Part shown: positions 40,887-42,524 of the stretch, one piece after another
Numbering within the stretch: the first letter of the stretch is position 1
Layout of the letters: every line of letters begins with the position of its first letter
Assembly (NCBI GenBank): GCA_028286465.1
Contig: JAQBRN010000017.1
Span: 1 to 46,968 of the forward strand
Direction of reading: 5' to 3'
DNA: 46,968 bases
Origin: Parcubacteria group bacterium
Lineage (GTDB): Bacteria > Patescibacteriota > Minisyncoccia > Phycocordibacterales > Zambryskibacteraceae
Translations under genes and position numbers: made by a program
Notes under the pieces: model-generated
What the model was told of the DNA's origin: nothing
What the model saw: only the letters and a program-made list of their open reading frames with translations
The model's database searches: none

Positions 40887-40988
40887 ACTGGTCTTTCCCA
40901 GCGTCGGACCGTTTTAGGGACTACGATCTTCGTCCATTATATGCTCAATTGAGGCATACAATATCGACACGATTACCCAAGATATTAT

Positions 40989-42524
40989 CTTGAGGTGGTT
41001 CAAATTGAATTACTCCACGAGCAGCTTCCGCTACCCGTGCCTTGTTACGACTTACTCCCTGTCGATGAGCTTACCGTGGTGCCGCTAAAGCGACCCTTCG
41101 GGTACTCCCATCTCCCTTGAGTTGACGGGCGGTGAGTACAAGACTTGAGAACGTATTCACCGCGGTATAGCTGACCCGCGATTACTAGTAATTCCGGCTT
41201 CATGGGGTCGAGTTGCAGCCCCCAATCCGAACTGGCGCACCTTTTCTAAGGATTAGCTCAGGGTTACCCCGTCGCGACCCGTTGTAGATGCGATTGTATT
41301 ATGCGTGTGGCCCAAGGTATCAGAGGGACATGCTGACCTGGCGTCATCCTCGCCTTCCTCCCCCGTTTGTAATCACAAGCCGATCCCAAATGAACCGGCT
41401 TATGCCCACAAACGGGGGCAGTCTCGCCAGACACTTGTAACTGGCAACGAGGGTTGCGTTCGTTACCCCACTTAAGGGAACAATTCAAATCACGAACTGA
41501 CGACGGCCATGCATCACCTGTCTACGAGTCCTTGCGGACGCCGAACGTTTCTGCTCGGCTTCACGTAGATTTCTAACCTTGGTAAGGTTTTTCGTTTGTC
41601 ATCGAATTAAACCGCATAATCCACTACTTGTGCAAGTCCCCGTCTATTCCTTTGAGTTTTAACCTTGCGGTCGTACTACCCAGGCGCTTCACTTAACGCG
41701 TTAGCTTCGCCTCCGAGGGGGTCGATACCCCCGAAAGCTAGTGAAGAACGTTTAGGGCGTGGACTACCGGGGTATCTAATCCCGTTCGCTACCCACGCTT
41801 TCGTGTTTCAGTGTCAGGAATGCGCCAGTGAATTGCCTTCGCTTTTGGTGTTCCCCATGATATCAACGGATTTCACCCCTACTCCATGAGTTCCATTCAC
41901 CCCTCGCATCCTCGAGCAATGCCGTTTCCTCTGCAGACCCCCGGTTAAGCCGAAGAATTTGACAGAAGACTAACATCGCCACCTACACACCCTTTACGCC
42001 CAATGATTCCGGATAACGCTTGGGGCACTCGTATTACCGCTGCTGCTGGCACGAGTTTAGCAACCCCTTATTCTTCGAGTACTATCAATTACTTTCTCCT
42101 CGACAAAAGATGTTTACGTCCCAGAGGGACTTCATCCATCACGCGGCGTCGCTCCATCAGACTTTCGTCCATTGTGGAAGATTCTCGACTGCAGCCACCC
42201 GTAGGTGTATGGGCCGTGTCTCAGTCCCATCGGTGGGGGTCAGCCTCTCAGCTCCCCTAGGCGTCATAGCCTTGGTAGTCCATTACACTACCAACTAGCT
42301 GATACCCCGCAGGCCCTTCCCAAAGCGAATTGCTTCTTTAATCCGGAGATACTATCAGGTATTAGCGAACCTTTCGGCTCGTTATTCCTGACTTCGGGGG
42401 AGGTTCCTACGTGTTACTACCTCGTCTGCCACTAGTAGCATATTGCTATGTTACCCGTTTGACTTGCATGCCTTATCCACGCCGCCAGCGTTCATCCTGA
42501 GCTAGGATCAAACTCTAATTATAA
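40989..42524 (-). rRNA. 16S rRNA (divergent, CPR-like; unusual 3' tail)
   Basis: Reverse strand AGAGTTTGATCCTAGCTCAGGATGAACGCTGGCGGCGTG ... GTGCCAGCAGCAGCGGTAATACGAG ... AAGTCGTAACAAGGCACGGGTAGCGGAAGCTGCTCGTGG. Exact mature ends uncertain. Confidence 0.97.

Follow-up and report, generated by a model that had tools for sequence, protein, structure and literature searches.

The window analyzed here, a stretch of 46,968 nucleotides, carries on its minus strand a 16S rRNA gene (42523-41003; Rfam RF00177, 1353.9 bits) that forms a standalone transcription unit, the 23S rRNA gene lying on another contig (C30:38-2988). A 16S model search of the assembly (730 kb, 96% complete) recovers this single copy and no second copy bearing a canonical tail. 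Helix 45 is intact (41016-41039, minus strand), as a first-pass annotation of the sequence had described, with a 10-bp stem closed by a GGAA loop (CACGGGTAGC-GGAA-GCTGCTCGTG); by sequence comparison its stem type, CACGG[GC]UA.., is common to most of the order. The RNA 3' of this helix reads GAGUAAUUCAAUUUGAACCACCUCAAGAUAAUAUCUUGG, and the tail taken from position 41015 on the minus strand, GAGTAATTCAATTTGAACCACCTCAAGATAATATCTTGG, matches exactly the one quoted in that annotation. Both palindromes noticed there exist as well: TTCAATTTGAA spans 41009-40999, and CAAGATAATATCTTG spans 40992-40978. In the 16S rRNA of this ultra-small bacterium, helix 45 is not followed by the CCUCC core that defines canonical pairing between Shine-Dalgarno (SD) and anti-Shine-Dalgarno (aSD) sequences, the means of mRNA recognition in nearly all bacteria.

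This departure had been ascribed to the insertion of 13-14 nt after helix 45, an interpretation that comparison with related tails refutes. The tail GAGUAAUUCAAUU (41003-41015, minus strand) is homologous to the canonical GAUCACCUCCUUU, and its comparison with tails of the order, class, and phylum is gap-free and leaves the length unchanged: GGAGUAAUUCAAUU stands in place of GGAUCACCUCCUUU, base for base, and AUUCA (41010-41006, minus strand) occupies the position of CCUCC. Order tails are equal in length to the canonical GGAUCACCUCC, with CCUCC changed to [AU]UUCA, and in most order relatives GGA[AUG][UC]A[AU]UUCAA lies directly 3' of helix 45. Some order members still possess GGAUCAAUUC or GGAUCAUUUC, as expected from a series of substitution steps. 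Given the gap-free alignment, there is no extra sequence relative to homologues of the kind that marks insertions and introns in CPR 16S genes. A canonical tail hidden beyond a small intron was also considered and rejected: in 24 order sequences, the 260 nt that follow contain no conserved CCUCC. These alignments indicate that the aSD of this 16S rRNA is lost through substitution, without displacement by an insertion. The motif CCACCUC (40992-40998, minus strand), previously taken for a weakened or shifted aSD, begins seven bases beyond the UUCAA motif and is pre-16S trailer sequence. It is not conserved, the same site reading AAACACGUCC in a relative of the same genus (G002) and AAACACUCUA in a further record (L123) and differing in other relatives, and the SD-like leaders described below would pair better with a canonical aSD.

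The order, which belongs to the CPR, was surveyed in a census of 297 genomes, 170 of which contain a match to the combined pattern of helix 45 and tail. Two tails among the matches listed contain CCUCC, both on foreign helix 45 stems (G172:C6:263-306 and G471:C30:2606-2649); the first of these genomes also holds an order-type copy, and both contigs are probably contaminants. No order-type tail with a CCUCC core occurs among the readable order relatives, and within this sample the loss of the aSD is, as judged from the tails compared, order-wide. The census thereby shows one feature of the SD-scarce organisms grouped as class iv in PMC10783764, namely a tail without CCUCC that is common to relatives. 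A contig scan with the tail pattern returned at least 120 matches; among the matches listed, the records that name a lineage are all of Patescibacteria type and comprise Yonath- and Harrisonbacteria together with Nomura-, Zambryski-, Taylor-, Adler-, and Campbellbacteria, the last five of which share the changed tail. The class-wide sample is a mosaic in which many tails are canonical and others read GGAACAUUUC, GGAUCAUCUC, GGAUCACUUC, or GGACCAAUUC. In the phylum sample CCUCC is kept in nearly all matches from other classes, with a single exception, CCGCC.

Closer examination of these tails reveals a second feature that has been retained. Many canonical relatives in the class read GAUCACCUCCUUUCUAGGGAG, in which CUCC of the aSD is paired with a downstream GGAG. 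The UUCA(AUU)UGAA mini-hairpin of the present locus (40999-41009, minus strand) is the counterpart of this canonical CUCC...GGAG precursor hairpin, related to it by compensatory changes, with UUCA/UGAA as this order's version of the arms. Pairing is likewise kept in other eroded tails, namely UUUCC/GGGAA, AUUUCCU/AGGGAAU, AUUUCU/AGAAAU, CUCUUU/AAAGAG, and AUCCU/AGGAU. Among the 175 unique tails, the complement of a tail's own core lies within the next 11 nt 126 times, where permutation gives 74.7 (maximum 86 in 1000 permutations); leaving out the UUCA group gives 30 of 53 tails versus 19.4 (maximum 26). This permutation leaves relatedness in, but coupling of this kind is seen repeatedly, in tails of differing type. 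Taken alone, the order set offers a short hairpin (4 bp) that is non-significant against shuffles of the individual sequence. The compensatory changes are those that distinguish a pre-16S 3' hairpin containing the aSD segment. Because arm pairing is retained across eroded tails, the mini-palindrome UUCAAUUUGAA is, on comparative grounds, the precursor (maturation) hairpin that formerly contained the aSD. The mature 16S 3' end is probably situated within the hairpin loop or close to it, at about 41003, and we infer that the tail on the 30S subunit is of normal length and unable to pair with GGAG. The earlier suggestion of an unusual 3' end is thus turned around: the precursor hairpin around this end is conserved, and the loss concerns the aSD sequence that the hairpin contained.

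The second palindrome (40978-40992, minus strand), once proposed to sequester or define the 3' end, is instead the first hairpin of a structured pre-16S trailer, variable in sequence and present across the order. It is followed by a conserved GUGUCGAU block with a second trailer hairpin (40936-40970, minus strand), the GUCGAU motif of which is order-wide and class-wide, and by an H-type pseudoknot (40906-40935, minus strand; S1 GGAC/GUCC, linker CUAAA, S2 GAUCGU/ACGGUC) supported by covariation of S2 (32 of 38 unique order sequences, compared with 9.5 and at most 16 under permutation). A small hairpin separates the pseudoknot from the 3' strand of a leader-trailer processing stem (GAACGGAACAAAAUAGAGAACGAUAAG; 40860-40886, minus strand), which is conserved in relatives and forms a duplex with the 5' strand in the leader (42550-42576, minus strand, pairing with 40886-40860 at -33.9 kcal/mol). 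An intrinsic-terminator-like hairpin, recognized from its sequence, ends the 16S transcript (40837-40858, minus strand). Across the order the trailer (40975-40860, minus strand) maintains its structure, including the pseudoknot in the form GGAY...RUCC-UAAAA-S2'-UGAC, and elements of it appear in other families of the class; a search of the window against Rfam reported no family for it. Since GUCGAU and related trailer elements are also found in class relatives with canonical tails, the trailer predates the loss of the aSD, and it was rejected as the cause of that loss on the same evidence. Separately, in records L151-L160 (class family f44), which have canonical tails, the complement of the aSD segment seems to have shifted downstream behind an inserted hairpin (CUUUC...GAAAG).

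Translation start signals were compared for genes called over ~720 kb of the genome with a home-made hexamer-model caller blind to upstream signals. SD motifs precede 9 of 182 conserved non-operon genes, where 'conserved' denotes homology to a partial sample, versus a background of 14, and are therefore not enriched. The caller is able to detect SDs, since a control genome from another class (G713) shows them in 44% of operon genes; in an E. coli control with the identical caller SDs are clear and the count at -12 is 0. In the present genome TAnnnT lies exactly at -12 in 43 of the 182 conserved non-operon genes (24%; background 3%, about 5 at more distal positions), and 21 of them have TGnTAnnnT at -15. 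The -12 peak is shared by order relatives and weaker in class relatives. A -10 hexamer at this fixed distance puts the predicted transcript start on the start codon itself, and we infer from the spacing that conserved genes with this element are expressed from leaderless mRNAs. Operon-internal genes mostly overlap or abut their neighbors and lack SDs. The first-pass proposal of an altered or minor role for SD-dependent initiation in this organism is thus supported by an order-wide absence of the aSD and by conserved genes devoid of SD signal. A class relative with a canonical tail (G166) is equally SD-poor, which suggests that loss of SDs and loss of the aSD are only loosely coupled. Within the window, two genes diverge at positions 10399-10426 across a gap of 22 nt, and both carry an extended -10 element at the predicted leaderless distance; their hexamers, TACCAT of TGCTACCAT (minus strand) and TAGCAT of TGGTAGCAT (plus strand), sit back to back at 10408-10417 and occupy -12 to -7 of the respective genes.

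SDs are scarce in the mRNAs of conserved genes and frequent in those of accessory non-operon genes. An SD-like motif precedes 111 of 344 non-conserved non-operon genes in this genome (32%) versus a background of 25. The motif is mostly GGAG, placed with very sharp spacing 5-6 nt ahead of the start, and these leaders match the canonical CUCC, with no fit to the tail of the order. A weak SD excess also appears in G002 and in pooled order loci. Examples in the window include the gene for a 56-aa predicted membrane protein with the leader aaggaggggg-ATG (40252-40422, minus strand) and, in a cluster with few conserved members, a 138-aa gene and a radical-SAM/B12-binding-like 653-aa gene (19685-22176, minus strand). 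A small ORF with a TTG start near 40795-40560 (minus strand) is another. Such genes are interspersed among conserved genes on shared contigs of uniform GC, and contaminating contigs alone are insufficient to explain them; a phage origin was also rejected, PHROGs matches being confined to metabolic enzymes and one weak unknown. Something may still read SDs in these cells, or may have done so in donors.

We lean slightly toward the view that the accessory SD-like genes were acquired recently from donors that use SDs (hosts, plasmids, or phages) and that their GGAG persists as a relic without a partner in this ribosome, a reading compatible with the best explanation of the tail. In sampled genomes, order homologues exist for 4% of the SD genes versus 29-36% of others, the leaders suit a canonical aSD, and codon usage differs slightly, with CGG at 0.20 versus 0.08 and with TAG and TGA stops more common. 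However, the SD genes are nearly identical to core genes in overall codon usage and GC3 (0.686 versus 0.684), and many unrelated donors would not be expected to yield so sharp a leader spacing.

The same GGAG leaders would be accounted for if a canonical aSD were supplied otherwise, by a second 16S rRNA that escaped assembly, a detached RNA fragment, or a mature 16S end that differs from the gene. We consider this improbable: although the assembly consists of 32 contigs, the sampled order genomes contain no such order-type copy, core genes show no SD, and the sole exact GGATCACCTCC in this genome (C32:1398-1408) gives no match to the 16S model.

Equally little credence is due to the insertion model in its functional form, according to which the 13-14 nt after helix 45 push CCACCUC outward as a weakened aSD that pairs with SDs in an altered geometry. 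CCACCUC is indeed present at 40998-40992, accessory leaders show an enrichment of GAGGU (15 versus 1.5), and G002, which has no CCACCUC, has a lower SD-like fraction than this genome. Yet absence of the motif from this same-genus relative, its lack of conservation in the order, and the gap-free tail alignment all speak against the model. The most frequent leader 5-mers (GGAGA, CGGAG, AGGAG) pair over at most about 3 bp with CCACCUC, AGGTGG is without enrichment in leaders, and leaders reach -6 kcal/mol or below in 33% of cases with a canonical aSD versus 21% with CCACCUC; conserved genes pair with neither. There is a similarly small chance that part of the trailer, comprising the UUCAA hairpin, the GUCGAU block, and the pseudoknot, is kept on the mature 30S subunit as a 3' extension with a part in initiation, perhaps as a guide for leaderless mRNAs or as a new means of reading the accessory GGAG leaders.

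That UUCAA is itself a new anti-SD pairing with a new leader motif is very improbable. Its strong conservation in the order is explained by the precursor hairpin, UUGAA and UGAAU are unenriched in leaders of this genome, G002, G032, and pooled order genes, and leader-tail duplex energies equal those of shuffled sequences. An assembly or binning artefact, which the first-pass annotation had raised as assembly error and which a metagenome assembly might invite, is next to inconceivable at the 16S tail, since the pattern is conserved across families and the identical tail recurs in assemblies from many independent projects.

Proteins associated with the 16S 3' end were also surveyed. Era reads GAUCACCUCC and has been lost in most CPR (reviewed in PMC10582724); in agreement, none of 41 order genomes contains Era above the cut-off. 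YbeY is present in 36 of the 41, including this genome. Matches to bS21 are weak and divergent, occurring in 11 of 41 order genomes and in 93 of 144 genomes sampled from the class; the Pfam model finds no match in this genome at E 0.001, and a bS21-like ORF assigned by eye adjoins ybeY (L202:11425-11703, minus strand). A divergent bS21-like ORF stands beside ybeY in many other order genomes as well (e.g., G351, G044, G050, and G277). Loss of bS21 as the driver of aSD loss was rejected given this ORF. Nor is this an aSD hidden on the 30S subunit by proteins such as bS21, as in Bacteroidota, because the aSD sequence is absent.

The analyses described above favor, with good confidence, a model that unites loss of the aSD by substitution, a tail kept by its hairpin, and SD-free initiation of conserved genes. 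Conserved genes would start on leaderless mRNAs, transcribed from an extended -10 promoter directly next to the start codon, or alternatively as second genes of tightly packed operons, presumably through coupling or reinitiation. With the aSD no longer required for initiation and Era absent, the tail would be selected solely for 3'-end maturation. The former aSD segment still makes up the 5' side of a short pre-16S hairpin, with a 3' side that has changed alongside it, and for maturation pairing would count and sequence would not. Weighing against this model are the accessory GGAG leaders, the weak SD excess in G002 and the pooled order loci, the bS21-like ORFs retained beside ybeY, the SD-poor class relative G166, and the shortness of the hairpin in the order set alone.

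Few sequences in biology are as conserved as the anti-SD. A large natural clade here lives without it, and intermediate stages survive in the class, which makes the relative timing of three losses, those of SD use, Era, and the aSD, and the real constraints on the 16S 3' end addressable. The covariation suggests that a second constraint, precursor pairing for maturation, is normally hidden beneath the aSD. Gene callers that score SDs, and annotation of 16S ends that assumes CCUCC, will misjudge these genomes. In the literature searched, with subscription papers mostly outside its reach, the order-wide loss, the class mosaic, the hairpin covariation, and the leaderless starts of this group are undescribed; the order-wide scope, the hairpin covariation, and the link to leaderless initiation appear to be new.

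Leaderless-rich prokaryotes such as Deinococcus resemble this order in that a -10 element one turn upstream predicts start-codon transcripts and selection on the aSD is relaxed. The Nanoarchaeia are leaderless-rich as well (PMC10783764). In contrast to these leaderless-rich prokaryotes, the present case concerns a bacterial order in which the loss can be traced through class intermediates. Mammalian mitochondrial 12S rRNA also lacks an aSD (PMC10582724), but the mitochondrion is an organelle with Era (ERAL1), whereas Era was not found in the order sample. Insertion sequences and introns of CPR rRNAs (PMC11270868) concern the same organisms and are the group to which the insertion proposed in the first-pass annotation would have belonged, whereas the 3' tail described here has no insertion and is unchanged in length. 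Flavobacteriia and other Bacteroidota initiate independently of SDs with the aSD sequestered on the 30S subunit (PMC6847099). They share with this order core genes without SDs and initiation without SD pairing; however, Bacteroidota generally keep the aSD, whereas here its sequence is gone and leaderless promoters are prominent. SD-scarce organisms without CCUCC are mostly Flavobacteriia, together with single Campbellbacteria and Wolfebacteria genomes (PMC10783764). Those CPR genomes resemble the present one in having a 16S tail without CCUCC and, as far as its conserved genes are concerned, few SDs, and a Campbellbacteria record (L110) is among the listed matches of the order's tail pattern. 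They are isolated entries in a table, whereas the loss described here is order-wide, forms a mosaic in the class, and is set against retention outside it; beyond that study, we find a covarying precursor hairpin, a leaderless-promoter signal, and accessory genes that are not SD-scarce.
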